From a virus: a stretch of 42,928 bases of DNA. This document shows, piece after piece, positions 23,607 to 38,732 of this stretch. The position numbers and the translations under genes were made by a program. Position 1 is the first letter of the stretch. Each line of letters starts with the position of its first letter. The stretch is from IMG/VR virus record IMGVR_UViG_3300028030_000027, positions 1-42,928 of that record, one strand, 5' to 3'. The notes beneath the pieces were generated by a model. It saw only the letters and a list, made by a program, of their open reading frames with translations. It made no database searches and was not told where the DNA came from.

Positions 23607-24319
23607 ACAGCCTGAAGGTTACTTTTACTCAGAATGTTGAATCTGGCAATCTACTACTTGAACTTGACGAGGAGAAGAACAACGGGCTAACCCGATTTCC
23701 GCCGGGGCAGAATGCTTACCTGAGATTATTCCCGGCAGGCGCCAATCCGCAGATTCTCTGCAACATGGGTTCCGTTGAGTTCAGTGCCAAAAATCTTCCC
23801 CTTGAGGTAGAGGAAGACATTTTGGTTGTTAATTCCGACTCTGCCGCAACAAAATACCCTGTTTCTGAAATCGTTTCTGTTGAGTGGCTTGGAAAACACT
23901 GGGGAAACGGCACGGTCAGAGTAGACGGCAGCAGAATAACGTTTACAAAAAAAGTAACGGGTGTCTTAAGGGTAAGCTACAGAACATACTACGACGAGCT
24001 TGTTGCATCCTGCGACAGGGAGGGAACCCAGCTCATCGTTGCTCAAAAAGAGACAGGAGCAGCCTACATAAACGTTAGCTGGGTAGAAAAGAAAAAAGAG
24101 GTTGTTTTAGTTGTAAAAGACGCCTGCACGAGGGCTTTTATTGAAGGAGCAAAGGTATATGTAGACGGAAAGTTTGTCGGTCTGACAGATTCCAGTGGCA
24201 GGATTAACCTCGGAAAAGTTCCTGTAGGCAAGCATTCCCTGAGAGTGGTGAAAGAGGGCTACCAGCCAACAGATGAAGACAACATTAAAAACGACTACTT
24301 CATAGTGAGCGATGGCTGA
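23603..24319 (+). CDS. Tail-tip protein, paralogue 2 with PEGA/CarboxypepD-like domain
   Basis: 238 residues from GTG 23603, overlapping the previous stop, with GGAGG upstream. The N-terminal 150 residues parallel paralogue 1 (LELDEEKNNGLTRFPPG, SVEWLGKHWGN, RVSYRTYYD). The last 70 form an Ig-like regulatory domain: FIEGAKVYVDGKFVGLTDSS, then GRINLGKVPVGKHSLRVVKEGY. Such domains often bind surfaces or act as spacers in virion proteins. The fused domain is absent from paralogue 1. Confidence 0.65.
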   Translation: MNSLKVTFTQNVESGNLLLELDEEKNNGLTRFPPGQNAYLRLFPAGANPQILCNMGSVEFSAKNLPLEVEEDILVVNSDSAATKYPVSEIVSVEWLGKHWGNGTVRVDGSRITFTKKVTGVLRVSYRTYYDELVASCDREGTQLIVAQKETGAAYINVSWVEKKKEVVLVVKDACTRAFIEGAKVYVDGKFVGLTDSSGRINLGKVPVGKHSLRVVKEGYQPTDEDNIKNDYFIVSDG

Positions 24320-25787
24320 GATTATCGTTTTCCTTGAACCTGAGAAGTGGCAACCTAACGGCATAAGGCACAGGCAGTGTTCTTTAAGTGCGGGGAGCAG
24401 CGATAACGAGATAGAAGTTCTCCTATGTCCGTCAGGGTTTGACTGCAGTAAAGAAGAGGTTGAGGTTTACATTCTCCCAGAAGGCAGGAGCGAAATAGAC
24501 TGTCTACTCTGCTACTCCGTTGAGGAGGTTCCTTTTAAATCTTCTATTCTGCGTATTAACAATGAGCTGTTAAGCCTACACAACCAGGCAAGGGAAGAGT
24601 TCTGCTCCGGCTGCCCACCTTTGAAGCTTGATGAGTCTCTGATCAGGCTTGCTCAGTGGTTTGCGGAGGATATGAAGAACTTTGATTACTACCACAGCGA
24701 CCATACAGACAGGTTCGGAAGAGGGGTAGCCGAAAGGTTCCTGCTCTTTGGAATTGACTACATAGAAGGAGGGGAAAATATAGGCTGGGTTGCCTCTGAT
24801 GCTCTCACAGAGAGAGAAGCAATACAGACAATGTTCTCGGGCTGGATGAACTCTCCTCATCACAGAGAGAACATCCTCAACAGCAACTTCAAGCAGGTGG
24901 GTTTTGGTATTGCCTCTAAAGAGGTTGAGATAGATGGAAAACTGCTCACAAAGTGGTGGTTTGTCGCCGACTTCGGAAACCTGAGAAGCAAAAAACCTGT
25001 AACTCCCGACCCGGAGCTCCCCTGCACGTCAGAGTGTATGAAAGAAATCAGGTGGTATCAGAAGAGCGAAAAGGTAAAGGAGTGGGACTACTCTGGGGAA
25101 GAACCGCAGGTTGTGGAAAGGGTCCGCCCTCTTCCCGAACTTGTGTTTGAGATTCCCTACATCAATATGTGCGGAATAGAGAAAATGGAGTTGTGGGGAG
25201 AAGTGTCCGGAACCCTGGCAAACATTGAGTTCCACGGCAAGGGACAGGCAACCGACAGGCTTGAATTCATCTGGGAACCCTACAGAAGGCCGCTGGTTAT
25301 AGACTTCACAGAAACAAGGCCATTCCCGGGAGAGCTGATTCTTCTTCTGGTCTATATGAGGGGGTATTCTGGAAACTGCAATCCCTGGATTGCCGGCTAC
25401 ACGTGGTTTGAGACGTTCTGCTTTACTTCGGGCGAGATACTCTCATGCTGCCTTGTTGACGACGATGGAAACATAACGGACGAATCGAGCGAACTTCCCG
25501 ACAGCTGGATAGGGCAGGACAACCTGAGATACAAAGTTCGTTTCAAGGGGAATCAGGTTTATCTCCTCAAGTGTTCAGACTACGCTAAATACAGAGAGTC
25601 TGAAAGGTGCATTATCTTCAAGAACGGTAGCTTCCGGATGAAAGATACCGAGAAAGACTCATGCAGGGCAGGACAGTTTGAGCCTGTCGGCAGTGGGCAG
25701 GTCTTGAGCGACTCAGTAGTCAGCTACTCCCTTGACCCCAAAAAGGACATAGTTGTTCCTGTCTGGTTCTGGAGTGAGGGGGCGTAA
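24312..25787 (+). CDS. Tail-tip protein with CAP/SCP domain
   Basis: 491 residues. Residues about 82-215 are a CAP domain: LLSLHNQAREEF (H90), a YYHSDH segment (H128), GGENIGWV (E155) and SPHHRENILNSNFKQVGFG (H183/H184, E186). These are the conserved His and Glu positions of the family. The remaining 270 residues are beta-rich with several cysteine pairs. CAP proteins bind lipids or glycans or act as proteases in other settings. In a phage tail it may contact or modify the cell envelope. No signal peptide, consistent with a virion protein. Confidence 0.75.
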   Translation: MAEIIVFLEPEKWQPNGIRHRQCSLSAGSSDNEIEVLLCPSGFDCSKEEVEVYILPEGRSEIDCLLCYSVEEVPFKSSILRINNELLSLHNQAREEFCSGCPPLKLDESLIRLAQWFAEDMKNFDYYHSDHTDRFGRGVAERFLLFGIDYIEGGENIGWVASDALTEREAIQTMFSGWMNSPHHRENILNSNFKQVGFGIASKEVEIDGKLLTKWWFVADFGNLRSKKPVTPDPELPCTSECMKEIRWYQKSEKVKEWDYSGEEPQVVERVRPLPELVFEIPYINMCGIEKMELWGEVSGTLANIEFHGKGQATDRLEFIWEPYRRPLVIDFTETRPFPGELILLLVYMRGYSGNCNPWIAGYTWFETFCFTSGEILSCCLVDDDGNITDESSELPDSWIGQDNLRYKVRFKGNQVYLLKCSDYAKYRESERCIIFKNGSFRMKDTEKDSCRAGQFEPVGSGQVLSDSVVSYSLDPKKDIVVPVWFWSEGA

Positions 25788-29892: not shown

Positions 29893-29937
29893 TGGTGCTG
29901 GCGGGGGGACTTGAACCCCCGACCTGGGCATTACGAG
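29893..29937 (-). other. attP core: 3' part of a tRNA-Thr (CGT) gene
   Basis: On the minus strand the sequence runs from the anticodon loop CTCGTAA through T-arm (GGGGG TTCAAGT CCCCC) and acceptor CGCCAGC to discriminator A and CCA. The 5' half of a tRNA is missing; the bases before the loop do not pair with TGCCC. This is the segment an integrase carries to rebuild the tRNA it interrupts. Phage genes flank it on both sides (endolysin and int). Confidence 0.8.
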
Positions 29938-30007: not shown

Positions 30008-31000
30008 TCAGAGCGGTAATTTCCTGATGGCATCTTGCAGGTGAGCAGGAGCCAGATGAGCGTATATTTCAGTTGTCCGGTAGTCCTGATGGCCGAGGAG
30101 CTCCTGCACGGTCTTTAAGTCCACTCCTGACATTACCATCAGGCTGGCGAACGTGTGTCGCAGGTCGTGGACTCTGACATTAGGAAACCCTGCTTCCCTG
30201 AGATAACCCTTTAGCTTGTGATAGACGTAATCCTTGTGGTAGGGAACCAGCTTGCCGACGGCCGGTAGTCTTTTCTCTATCTCCTCTCTAAGGCGGGGAT
30301 GAATAGGTATAACCCTGCTCTGGTAGTTTTTGGCTTTTCTAACGACTATAACTCCTCTGTTGAGGTCAACATCAGACCAGCGGAGGTTAACAACCTCCGA
30401 GAGCCTCATTCCGGTGTAGATAAAGAGCTTAAATACAAAAGCCCAGTAGTCATTGTCTATTACTTCCAGAACCTTACTTATCTGCTCAGGGAGCAGGAAA
30501 ACCGGAGGCTTTTGCTGAACCTTAAGGAGCTTGTAACCTCTAAAAGGGTGTTCTTTTACAAACTCCCATTCAACTGCCTTGGTGAGGGAAGCTTTTAAGT
30601 GCCTTATGTGGGTGTTAACCGTGCTGCGGGTTACTCCCGTTGCTAATAGATGAGATATATATTCGTCTAAGTGTTTACGGGATAGGGATTTAAGGTAGAT
30701 ATCCCCCACTATCTCCTTGAAGTTGTTAAGGACGTAGAACCTCTTGCGATAGGTAGCGGGAGCAAGATTCTCCCTTGCCCAGTCTAAATATTCTGGGATA
30801 AACTCAGAGAGGAGAACCTTCCGGCCCTCTTTAAGGATTATAAGCTTCCCAGCTAAATATTCCCTCTTTAGCTTGTTAAAAAGGCGAATGGCCTCCGCTT
30901 TGTTGCGTGTGCGAAGGCTCTTTTTTACTCCACGCCTGAACTCTACATACCAGATGCCGTTCTCTCTTTGGAATAGACGCATATTGATATTTAACCGCAT
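30008..31000 (-). CDS. int: Tyrosine integrase
   Basis: 330 residues, ATG preceded by GAGG. N-terminal arm-binding region, a SAM-like core-binding domain (about 65-150, FIPEYLDWARENLAPATYRK), and a catalytic domain with R199 (YTGMRLSE), H278-x-x-R281 (VHDLRHTF), H304 (LLGHQDYRTT) and nucleophile Y313 (EIYAHL). It joins attP next to its 3' end to a host tRNA-Thr gene. It is the last gene of the leftward operon and overlaps xis by 10 nt, so the two are translated together. Confidence 0.95.
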   Translation of the reverse strand: MRLNINMRLFQRENGIWYVEFRRGVKKSLRTRNKAEAIRLFNKLKREYLAGKLIILKEGRKVLLSEFIPEYLDWARENLAPATYRKRFYVLNNFKEIVGDIYLKSLSRKHLDEYISHLLATGVTRSTVNTHIRHLKASLTKAVEWEFVKEHPFRGYKLLKVQQKPPVFLLPEQISKVLEVIDNDYWAFVFKLFIYTGMRLSEVVNLRWSDVDLNRGVIVVRKAKNYQSRVIPIHPRLREEIEKRLPAVGKLVPYHKDYVYHKLKGYLREAGFPNVRVHDLRHTFASLMVMSGVDLKTVQELLGHQDYRTTEIYAHLAPAHLQDAIRKLPL

Positions 31001-31197
31001 TGTTTAACCTCGTGCAAGAGAACTTCTGTTTTGAGATCGTCCTCGCCGAGAAATGCGTCTATACTTTCTCTGTCCCAGAGCCATTTATTGCCTGCTTTTT
31101 TAGCAGAGATAAAACCTTGAAGGTAGTATTTCTTAAGGGTCTTGTAGCAAAGCGACGTATATTCTTCCGCCTCTTTTGTAGTGAGCCAGCGTTTCAT
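30991..31197 (-). CDS. Excisionase-like HTH protein
   Basis: 68 residues behind GGAGG. A MerR-type winged HTH fills most of it: LTTKEAEEYTSLCYKTLKKY, then a LQGFISAKKAGNKWLWDRES wing. Small size and the overlap with int point to the directionality factor Xis; the phased TTCC array beside attP is a possible target. A repressor role cannot be excluded. Confidence 0.8.
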   Translation of the reverse strand: MKRWLTTKEAEEYTSLCYKTLKKYYLQGFISAKKAGNKWLWDRESIDAFLGEDDLKTEVLLHEVKQCG

Positions 31198-31198
31198 C

Positions 31199-31852
31199 TT
31201 AGACCTCCTGGAATAGTTCAGGATGTAGAGGTTGGGTTAGAGCTCTCTTGAACCTCTCCCACTTAGCTAAAGAGAACAAAGGAAGGGCGGAATCTATTGA
31301 ATCCGCTCCTATTCTCCTTGCCCAGCGGACTCTGCGGGCGGTTCCTACCCTTCCGATGTGGCATTTCTTATTATGGGAATGTGCGAACTTTACCCAGAAC
31401 TCTCCCCACCTTATCTTCCATTCAGTAGTTCCACCCACGAAAAGCCAGTCAAACTGATGCACAACTGGCTCTATGTGTTTAGGCTTCATTCCGTCTTGAA
31501 GAGCAAGAGCATAACGAAAGTTGGGAAATTCTCTTTTAAGACGCTCTAACCAGCAAAGAGAAAAGTCTAAAGATTTAAGTCCTTCAGCGACTTTGTCGGG
31601 GACCACAACAAAGGTAGGGGGAGCTTCCTCTATACTGGCGACAAACTCAAGTGTTTTCAGGAAGGCTGTATCATCAAACGGAACCTTGTTTTTCCAGCAG
31701 GAAAAGGCTCCGTTATCCACAAAGTAGAGTGGAAAAGTATGTGGACAGAACTTACGGCGGAGCTCCGGGACGAGCACGACGCCCCAGTCTTCTTTTCTTA
31801 TTTCCTTTGCTTTTTTGGAGCCTCTGGAAACGAGGCCTAAATAAACATCCAA
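31199..31852 (-). CDS. Predicted DpdA-like 7-deazaguanine DNA transglycosylase (TGT fold)
   Basis: 217 residues. Five positions that define the TGT barrel are present in order: FVDNGAF (D46, nucleophile pocket, cf. DSGGF), VVVPD (D86), ALQDG (Q119, cf. VQGG), FVGGTTEWK (G140-G141, cf. GGLAVGE) and GADSIDS (D184/D187, cf. the nucleophile FDCV). Also CHIGRVGTARRVRWARRIG. The C-terminal Cys4/His zinc site of tRNA TGT is absent. Phage and bacterial DpdA enzymes exchange guanine in DNA for preQ0-type bases, which protects against restriction. No preQ0 synthesis gene is in the window, so the base would come from the host queuosine pathway. Activity on DNA is inferred. Confidence 0.75.
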   Translation of the reverse strand: MDVYLGLVSRGSKKAKEIRKEDWGVVLVPELRRKFCPHTFPLYFVDNGAFSCWKNKVPFDDTAFLKTLEFVASIEEAPPTFVVVPDKVAEGLKSLDFSLCWLERLKREFPNFRYALALQDGMKPKHIEPVVHQFDWLFVGGTTEWKIRWGEFWVKFAHSHNKKCHIGRVGTARRVRWARRIGADSIDSALPLFSLAKWERFKRALTQPLHPELFQEV

Positions 31853-31927
31853 GACAGCCTCCCTATCAGATTTTCAGGGAAGCCGAATAGGGGGACGGGT
31901 GGGGGAGAGGGTTATTTGTTTATTGGC

Positions 31928-32584
31928 TCACTCCATACCTCCTACTAAATCTTCAAACAGTATCAAGTGCTCTTTTGGCAGTGCCTCAACAACCAGCTCA
32001 GCCACTCGTCTAATCTCAAAGTGAGCTGCAGGGTGAAGCCTTAGTTTCAAGAAGTTCCTCAAAGACCTCGCATTAACAGCCCAGACAAGCTCTGTTCTCC
32101 AGGCTTCTGGAATGAAGTATTTGGCTACGTCATTGTTGTTGTGACGCTTTACTGCCTTGAAGACCTGTTGGAGAATCTCATACATAGCGAAATAATCTTC
32201 TATTGAGAAGTCAGGAGGAATCACACAGTATTTCTCTACCAGCTCGGTGACGTTTGGTATTTCAGGAGAATTTAGATCCTCTGCAACTATTCTTTTCAGC
32301 GTATATCTCGTTGACTGCACGGAGTAACTCGCTATCCTGTGCCTAACAAGCTGCTGTAAGAACCCTCGGGAGGCTCCTTTGATGCGGAACGTGTAAGATA
32401 CGTGCTCTATAACTGACTCGTGGCCTAATGATATGAGCTTTCTAAGTAGTTTGCGGTTGTTCTCTCCTATATTCCTCTCATCAACGTAATCGTCCCTATC
32501 AAAAGAGCTGTAACAAGTCCGGGCGCCGATGATGGCGTTCCGAACGGGAGAATGAGAACAGAGCTCCACAGTTATGTTTTTCAT
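31928..32584 (-). CDS. thyX: Flavin-dependent thymidylate synthase
   Basis: 218 residues behind AGGAGG. The ThyX motif RHRIASYSVQSTRY (RHRxxS pattern) is intact, as are LGHESVIEHVSYTF and the C-terminal NARSLRNFLKLR. It makes dTMP from dUMP using FAD, NADPH and methylene-tetrahydrofolate. With the dUTPase relic and SSB it forms the nucleotide and recombination part of the leftward operon. Confidence 0.95.
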   Translation of the reverse strand: MKNITVELCSHSPVRNAIIGARTCYSSFDRDDYVDERNIGENNRKLLRKLISLGHESVIEHVSYTFRIKGASRGFLQQLVRHRIASYSVQSTRYTLKRIVAEDLNSPEIPNVTELVEKYCVIPPDFSIEDYFAMYEILQQVFKAVKRHNNNDVAKYFIPEAWRTELVWAVNARSLRNFLKLRLHPAAHFEIRRVAELVVEALPKEHLILFEDLVGGME

Positions 32585-35415: not shown

Positions 35416-35491
35416 TGGCAGCCCCAGGGGGATTTGAACCCCCGCTTCCGGATTTGGAATCCGGCGGTCTCCCTGACTAACCTATGGGGCT
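35416..35491 (-). tRNA. tRNA-Trp (CCA)
   Basis: 76 nt including encoded CCA. Acceptor AGCCCCA pairs TGGGGCT, discriminator G as in tRNA-Trp; anticodon stem CCGGA/TCCGG with loop TTCCAAA; T-arm CGGGG/CCCCx with loop TTCAAAT. It lies inside the leftward operon between the 61-residue ORF and bet, so it is cotranscribed and must be cut out. It reads UGG. Confidence 0.93.
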
Positions 35492-35536: not shown

Positions 35537-35722
35537 CTATATTCTGTATTTGTCGATAACTGCTTCTAACTCGGCCTTTATCTTGTCTACAACTTCGTAC
35601 GGAGTTTCTCCTGGCCTATTGTAAGCAGCAATCCAGAATGAGTCACGAATTTCAACCTTTATCTCAAAGCCAGTGCAATCATCTGCAGGGAACTTTTCTT
35701 TTATTTCCCAATTCATATCCAT
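35537..35722 (-). CDS. Small hypothetical protein
   Basis: 61 residues from ATG 35722, six bases after GGGAGG and overlapping the dUTPase stop. Alpha/beta pattern: WEIKEKFPADDCTGFEIKVE and PYEVVDKIKAELEAVIDKYR. No family recognised. Two bases past its stop lies the tRNA remnant. Confidence 0.55.
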   Translation of the reverse strand: MDMNWEIKEKFPADDCTGFEIKVEIRDSFWIAAYNRPGETPYEVVDKIKAELEAVIDKYRI

Positions 35723-36015
35723 CACTCACCTCCCTTATCGCTACTTCCAAATCCGCCAGTTCCTCTTTCTGTGTCAGATAACTCCTCAACCTCTACCGCC
35801 ACTCCATCGTAAAGAGAAACCGGCACGAGTTGCGCAAATCTCTCTCCTTTCTTAATCGTAACCACCCTGCTTCTGACCAGCGTAACCGGGAGCCCGCCAT
35901 TTTCGTTCACGGCAGGCAGGGTTGTGTCTTCAAGGGCGTATAGGTCAAACCCGAGGTCGCCGGAGTAGGCTCGGGTTGGGATTTTGGCGTCTGGATGGAG
36001 CTTTTTGACTTTCAT
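35722..36015 (-). CDS. dut: dUTPase with central deletion
   Basis: 97 residues, against about 145 in the family. The N-terminus keeps motif 1 (RAYSGDLGFDLYALEDTTLP), and the C-terminus keeps GERFAQLVPV (motif 4) and TERGTGGFGSS (motif 5). Motif 2 (PSG) and motif 3 with the catalytic Asp (normally GxxDxDYRG) are missing, replaced by VNENGGLPVTL. The frame is intact, so a shortened protein is made. It likely no longer hydrolyses dUTP unless it pairs with another chain. Confidence 0.8.
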   Translation of the reverse strand: MKVKKLHPDAKIPTRAYSGDLGFDLYALEDTTLPAVNENGGLPVTLVRSRVVTIKKGERFAQLVPVSLYDGVAVEVEELSDTERGTGGFGSSDKGGE

Positions 36016-37305: not shown

Positions 37306-37399
37306 TGGCGGAGAGGGAGGGATTTGAACCCTCGGAACGGCTTCAGCCGTTCAGGCGGGTAGCAACCGCCTGCCTTAAGCCAGACTCGGCCACCCCTCC
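37306..37399 (-). tRNA. tRNA-Ser (GCT)
   Basis: 94 nt with encoded CCA and the long variable arm of class II tRNAs (ACGGCTGAAGCCGT). Acceptor GGAGGGG pairs CCTCTCC with one G-U; discriminator G; anticodon stem GGCGG/CCGCC with loop TTGCTAC, anticodon GCT for AGC/AGU codons. It lies between the structured leader and the first protein gene, in the same direction. Confidence 0.93.
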
Positions 37400-37644: not shown

Positions 37645-37670
37645 GAATGAAATAATTGGGGGAGGATGTT

Positions 37671-38732
37671 TTGAGTTTTGAAGCAGAACTCTTAAAGCTA
37701 TCTGAAAGGATCAAAGAAATTAAAGACAAGGTTTTAACTGAAGAAGCTACAAAACAGTCTTTTGTAATGCCTTTTCTAAAAATCCTTGGCTATGACATTT
37801 TTAACCCTGAGGAGGTCATCCCTGAATTCACAGCAGATATAGGAAGGAAGAAGGGCGAAAAGGTAGACTATGCTATTTTAAAAGACGGCAAGCCCTTGAT
37901 TCTTATAGAAGTTAAGAACCACACAGAAAAACTGGATAACCACACAAACCAGCTTGTCAGATACTTTACTGTGACCGATGCCAAGTTTGGCATTCTTACA
38001 AACGGCATTGAATACAGATTCTTTTCGGATCTTGATGAGAAAAACAAAATGGACGATAAACCATTTCTGGTAATTAACCTTGAAGACTTGCGGGAGAAAG
38101 ACATAAAAGAACTTGAAAAATTCGCAAAGGAAAATCTGGATGTAGAAAATATCCTTTCTATGGCAAGCAGGCAGAAGAATATAAGGGAAATCCAACAAAT
38201 ATTCAGGGAAGAAACGCAAAATCCCTCAGATGAGTTTGTTAAATTCTTCGCTTCAAGGATAAAAAAGGGCAGAATAACAAAAAACGTGATTGAAGAATTT
38301 CGGGGATATGTGAAAACAGCCTTTAACGACCTTATTAATGAGCTTGCTACCGAAAAAATCAATACTCTTAAGAAACATCTTGAAAGTCAGTCTTTAGAGG
38401 AAACCGAACAGGAAGAGGATAGGGGAATAGTTACCACCGAGGAAGAACTTCAGGCTTTCTATATAGTGAAATCAATAGCAGCAGAAATAACCAACCCGGC
38501 AAACATAACCGCAAAAGATACAAAGAGCTATTTCAACGTGCTTTACAAAGGGAACACAAGGAAGTGGATTTGTAGATTTTACTTCAATTCACAGCGTAAA
38601 AAGTATTTAGGTCTTCACGTTGCAGATAAGGAAGAGAAAAGAGTGCAGATATCTTCTCCGGAAGATATCTATAGTTATAAAAAAGAAATTCAGGAAATAA
38701 TAAAAAACTTAGAAGCGAAGGAGGTATCATAA
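37671..38732 (+). CDS. Type I restriction HsdR-N-like nuclease domain protein
   Basis: 353 residues from TTG 37671, six bases after GGGGGAGG; a TTG at 37656 would sit before it. The N-terminal domain is PD-(D/E)XK of the HSDR_N type: TKQSFVMPFLKILGYDIFNP, then KKGEKVDYAIL (catalytic Asp) and KPLILIEVKNH (ExK). The middle is helical (residues 150-240) and the end (from about 265) is another small domain. No helicase or methylase partner is present. AT-rich, with its own direction between PL and cI, so it is a cargo gene; defence or host takeover is possible. Confidence 0.75.
   Translation: MSFEAELLKLSERIKEIKDKVLTEEATKQSFVMPFLKILGYDIFNPEEVIPEFTADIGRKKGEKVDYAILKDGKPLILIEVKNHTEKLDNHTNQLVRYFTVTDAKFGILTNGIEYRFFSDLDEKNKMDDKPFLVINLEDLREKDIKELEKFAKENLDVENILSMASRQKNIREIQQIFREETQNPSDEFVKFFASRIKKGRITKNVIEEFRGYVKTAFNDLINELATEKINTLKKHLESQSLEETEQEEDRGIVTTEEELQAFYIVKSIAAEITNPANITAKDTKSYFNVLYKGNTRKWICRFYFNSQRKKYLGLHVADKEEKRVQISSPEDIYSYKKEIQEIIKNLEAKEVS

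Follow-up and report, generated by a model that had tools for sequence, protein, structure and literature searches.

The window, that is, the whole 42,928-nucleotide stretch of virus record IMGVR_UViG_3300028030_000027 that was analyzed, encodes a 217-amino acid protein (31199-31852, minus strand) that we assign to the phrog_15826 family as a TGT-fold, DpdA-like transglycosylase, based on a profile match, conserved motifs and the predicted fold. We think it probable that this protein is a minimal DpdA-type DNA-guanine transglycosylase, which uses preQ0 or preQ1 made by the host and protects the phage DNA. The catalytic roles (by homology to TGT), DNA as the substrate, the identity of the inserted base and the benefit against restriction are inferred.

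Gene, operon and host

The gene starts with TTG, with GGGAGG ahead of the start codon, and occupies exactly the coordinates given in the first-pass annotation, which did not state the strand. In a PHROGs search, the phrog_15826 profile matched residues 13-194 of the protein with an E-value of 9.1e-30. PHROGs labels this family as of unknown function, and SEA-PHAGES labels its members as DpdA-like. The protein matched no Pfam or NCBIfam family, including the Pfam TGT family PF01702, and a PDB search with its sequence gave no match. A PDB search with the family profile returned only chance matches to TIM barrels, and the question was settled by the fold search described below. The open reading frame is not due to chance, as seen from the phrog_15826 match, the relatives found by tblastn and profile searches, and the TGT fold.

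As previously proposed, the gene map places the transglycosylase gene in a leftward early operon beside thyX. The latter, encoding an FAD-dependent thymidylate synthase (31928-32584, minus strand; PF02511, 4e-47; TIGR02170), lies upstream in the same operon; the association, which is kept in one sister prophage, looks positional only. A small HTH protein, probably an excisionase or directionality factor (30991-31197, minus strand; PF12728, 4e-8; phrog_66 excisionase, 1.6e-5), is encoded starting 1 bp past the transglycosylase gene, followed by a tyrosine integrase (30008-31000, minus strand) that is 94% identical to the integrase of a Desulfurobacteriaceae prophage. Together with an attP in a tRNA gene and an S24/HTH repressor, the integrase agrees with the view that the phage is otherwise an ordinary temperate one. 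The early operon region also carries phage tRNA genes for Trp(CCA) and Ser(GCT) (35416-35491 and 37306-37399, minus strand). A dUTPase homolog of only 97 amino acids (35722-36015, minus strand) has the first and last dUTPase motifs and seems to have lost the middle, possibly by internal deletion. On the opposite strand to the early operon, a gene for a 358-amino acid protein (37656-38732, plus strand), in which a type I restriction HSDR_N domain was recognized (PF04313, 3.5e-18), is perhaps a prophage-borne defense gene. At the tail and lysis end, a 491-amino acid protein (24312-25787, plus strand) has a CAP (cysteine-rich secretory protein) domain, which is unusual in a phage structural gene.

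The attP core identifies the host family as the Desulfurobacteriaceae (Aquificota), heat-loving bacteria of vents. This core (29893-29937, minus strand) corresponds to the 3' part of tRNA-Thr(CGT). Within a collection of bacterial and archaeal genomes, it has seven exact matches, all in Desulfurobacteriaceae and all within tRNA-Thr(cgt), with 53 bp in common with L104. Most of the seven genomes, which are MAGs, encode QueC (6/7, about 250 bits), TGT (6/7) and QueD (5/7); thus, the host family is able to make preQ0, which supports the earlier suggestion that the base is made by the host. Relatives of the transglycosylase gene occur in 3 of 22 Desulfurobacteriaceae genomes. A genome of this family also encodes a 595-amino acid fusion (L119, 8980-10767, minus strand) of a PAPS-reductase/SspD/DndC-like domain and a small TGT-like domain, an arrangement that suggests that the two domains act together.

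A sister prophage, L118, occupies the same kind of att site and has an integrase and a ThyX that are 94% and 75% identical, respectively, to those of the window. The DNA of the two is 85% identical from the att core to position 31208, and the upstream flank that includes the ribosome-binding site (31851-31910, minus strand) is 88% identical. Between these flanks, the open reading frame cannot be aligned to L118 DNA, save for one 25-bp match, and the encoded proteins are only 38% identical. In a maximum-likelihood tree of 66 sequences, the window protein is sister not to the L118 protein but to that of L117, which is from a different locus (support 100/94). To judge from these alignments and the tree, the gene looks to have been replaced between flanking homologies, in other words by an allele swap; faster divergence in place is a less likely source of the difference. 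Allele replacement fits what is expected of a gene involved in an arms race.

Fold, active site and place among known transglycosylases

The AlphaFold2 model of the window protein, built from an alignment of 52 relatives, has a pLDDT of 93.8 and a pTM of 0.90. Fold comparison with Foldseek and VIA-align gave the TGT of Zymomonas as the top match (Z 15.8, 210 of 217 residues, rmsd about 3.3) despite a sequence identity of ~14%, and the preQ0 complex 2qii scored nearly the same (Z 15.7). Other TIM barrels also score well; therefore, the motifs carry weight. Equivalents were found for the whole residue set of the TGT fold (D102, D156, Q203, G229-G230 and D280), namely D46, D86, Q119, G140-G141 and D187, which lie in the motifs D46-N-G-A, P-D86, Q119-D-G, F-x-G140-G141 and around D187. 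All five active-site regions reported in the first-pass annotation are thus present within the 217 residues. The residues invariant over the 52 relatives include N47, G48, P85, D86, Q119, D120, G121, G140, G141, K146, H165, R168 and D187, and D46 is kept in at least 90%. The sequence has no cluster of cysteines like that in the zinc module of TGT; therefore, this module is missing, as had been noted before.

HHalign against nine 9g-type phage DpdAs gave a probability of 84.7% and an E-value of 6.7e-6 over 103 columns, which is part of the protein, with the DNGAF of the window protein aligned to the DSGAF of the phage enzymes. Against Desulfurobacteriaceae TGTs, a shallow template, the probability was 3.7%, with the motifs nevertheless in the same register: QDG pairs with VQGG, GG with GGL, and D187 with the Asp of FDC. 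We take the aligned Gln and Asp to be Q203 and D280 of the Zymomonas TGT. The bacterial enzyme (PF01702) has the fold and the Gln, GG and Asp motifs in common with the window protein, but it is about 370-385 amino acids long and has the zinc module.

The 9g/CAjan/Rosebush-type DpdAs (phrog_887) likewise have a TGT fold and a DSGAF-like motif, are linked to QueC, QueD, QueE and FolE, and are proposed to insert preQ0 into DNA. However, the nine compared are 240-385 amino acids long, whereas the phrog_15826 family usually measures about 200-215, and they have a His at the site of the invariant Gln119. A conserved catalytic-site histidine at position 196 of 9g DpdA, not found in DpdA2, is reported in PMC6884629. 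The phrog_887 profile matched the window protein with an E-value of 0.045, and no PHROG or Pfam cross-match was above threshold. The DpdA2 of Vibrio phage nt-1 (phrog_10773) has a similar fold prediction and is also linked to preQ0 genes, but it is 464 amino acids long, and a profile comparison with phrog_15826, for which the nt-1 template was a single sequence, detected no similarity. Given Gln119 at the site of the His and the lack of a cross-match above threshold, the window protein is probably not a 9g-type DpdA, nor is it recognizably a DpdA2; the best reading is a Gln-type variant separate from both. The term "minimal DpdA", used in the first-pass annotation, therefore applies in that the protein is DpdA-like and has no tRNA-recognition module, but probably not in the sense of membership of these two groups. 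By profile, the protein lies closer to the phage DpdAs than to the TGTs, and it falls into no characterized DpdA group.

Family distribution and linkage to preQ0 genes

The family is widespread in viruses and also occurs on plasmids. Searches with tblastn matched 23 phage records, of which several bear the annotation "DpdA-like tRNA-guanine transglycosylase"; among plasmids, 183 records matched, most of them from Pseudomonas. Many plasmids of Pseudomonas and Burkholderiaceae carry a member (e.g., L008, L009, L010 and L012), and some of these copies adjoin genes for PAPS-reductase-like, DUF72 or ParB-domain proteins. A scan of IMG/VR viral contigs with the single window protein found nothing; a profile scan, used instead, found 523 relatives. 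Of these, 80 loci were kept. Clustering of the viral loci at 80% identity gave 55 clusters.

In viral contigs, phrog_15826 is tied to 7-deazaguanine synthesis, a link that is new here. QueD, QueC, QueE or FolE is encoded near the family gene in 30 of the 55 viral clusters, and within 100 bp in 29. Every Que or FolE neighbor detected is on the same strand as the family gene, many with 4-bp overlaps. None of 126 control loci (1,129 kb), anchored by an integrase DNA motif, has such a gene; the resulting Fisher p of 2e-19 is indicative, since the controls come from another sample and their flanks are somewhat shorter. Among 50 records, Pfam models confirmed QueD in 12 and QueC in 10. In Phegasus, ReqiPine5, Aoka and contig G005, Pfam models for QueC and QueD found neither, and a Vut_1/YhhQ-type protein scores above the curated cut-off near the family gene. 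In the simplest reading, this protein is a preQ0 transporter that stands in for the Que genes, and the common denominator is the supply of preQ0 to the enzyme.

The small "DpdA-like" proteins Sonali gp81, Phegasus gp54, Aoka gp40 and ReqiPine5 gp3, from phages of Actinomycetota, are of the same family and about 204-209 amino acids long, with all motifs and about 26-29% identity to the window protein. Either Que genes or a YhhQ-type transporter are encoded by those phages, whereas the window phage has neither: a search of the window for homologs of QueC, QueD, QueE, FolE and YhhQ found none, nor did the window ORFs scanned include an enzyme that converts preQ0 further. The earlier remark that synthesis genes are absent thus holds for this phage but not for the family, in which they are the commonest neighbors; linkage to preQ0 synthesis or transport is a family trend rather than a requirement.

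A separate 9g-type DpdA accompanies the small protein only in Sonali and phiG7. In the Seuratvirus phiG7, the small gene (L004, 5983-6575; gp20/gp21) is split over two annotated ORFs in different frames, possibly decayed, and adjoins the full 9g-type DpdA gene cluster. Weak phrog_887 matches in 12 viral contigs, considered as a second DpdA, seem instead to be members of the small family. Halovirus HVTV-1, which has dPreQ1 and no known DpdA, was considered as a carrier of the family and gave no match in the first 100 of its 102 kb.

Proposed role and alternatives

According to our model, the protein would be produced from the leftward early operon of this temperate Desulfurobacteriaceae phage and would break the glycosidic bond of certain guanines in the phage DNA. 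D187 would serve as the nucleophile and D46 as the acid/base, and D86, Q119 and G140-G141 would form the base pocket. A 7-deazaguanine that the queuosine pathway of the host supplies, either preQ0 or preQ1, would take the place of these guanines, and restriction enzymes or other nucleases of the host would in turn cut the DNA less readily. There is precedent for such an arrangement: in E. coli, 9g dpdA by itself is enough for dPreQ0 to be put into plasmid DNA from host preQ0; Salmonella phage 7-11, which has dpdA only, contains dADG at a low level; and loss of dpdA from CAjan abolishes DNA protection and restores cutting (PMC6884629). Two observations count against the model. The dpdA-only phage Orion has no modification (PMC6884629), although its host does not have the pathway, and in Sonali and phiG7 a family member coexists with a full DpdA, so that the small protein may have another role in these phages. 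We found no biochemistry on any phrog_15826 member.

The nearest solved structures are tRNA TGTs, the family has Gln at the Q203 position as tRNA enzymes do, and the phage carries two tRNA genes, all of which could point to a zinc-less TGT that puts 7-deazaguanine in host or phage tRNA and tunes translation during infection. We regard this as unlikely, given that the zinc module by which TGT recognizes tRNA is absent, the host already has a full TGT, the phage tRNAs are not the GUN tRNAs of the queuosine type, and the profile is closer to phage DpdA than to TGT. Modification of protein, like that by Cap9/Cap10 of type IV CBASS, is highly improbable; Foldseek did match the Cap10-CdnD complex 9ntn, and members of the QueC family have been co-opted to attach deazaguanine to proteins (PMC13329287), but no PADLOC family matched, and the usual neighbors QueD, QueE and FolE supply free preQ0 and are genes that protein-modifying systems would not have to carry.

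Very unlikely, in our view, is a different target or base, such as a 7-deazaguanine altered with sulfur or otherwise by a PAPS-reductase-like partner, or base removal. PAPS-reductase-like genes adjoin some relatives, the Desulfurobacteriaceae fusion joins the two kinds of domain, and Sonali and phiG7 have a full DpdA alongside the small protein; however, a search of the window found no PAPS-reductase-like partner, and Que neighbors are far commoner than PAPS-reductase neighbors across the family. It is also quite unlikely that the family is a class by itself, a minimal enzyme that exchanges nucleic-acid bases and makes a product of its own (e.g., a PAPS-reductase-altered 7-deazaguanine), the alleles of which would be swapped wholesale in an arms race over DNA marks with host nucleases.

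DpdA enzymes, phages with DpdA only, and the use of host preQ0 are already known. What is new is the evidence that places phrog_15826, whose members are zinc-less, of the Gln type and about 210 amino acids long, in DpdA biology. Its occurrence in Aquificota phages is also new, as is the apparent replacement of the allele. The comparison covered the 9g-type and nt-1 enzymes; Cui et al. 2023 define DpdA subfamilies, and part of what is given here as new may already be in print. For a DpdA-type role, a widespread viral family of unknown function in PHROGs thus gains a concrete putative function in the 7-deazaguanine modification of DNA, which would extend such phage modification to the Aquificota. 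With about 210 amino acids, these proteins may approach the smallest natural TGT-fold base exchanger and hence are candidate DNA-labeling tools, of which the window member should be heat-stable. Finally, the allele swap between sister prophages suggests arms-race selection on the gene.
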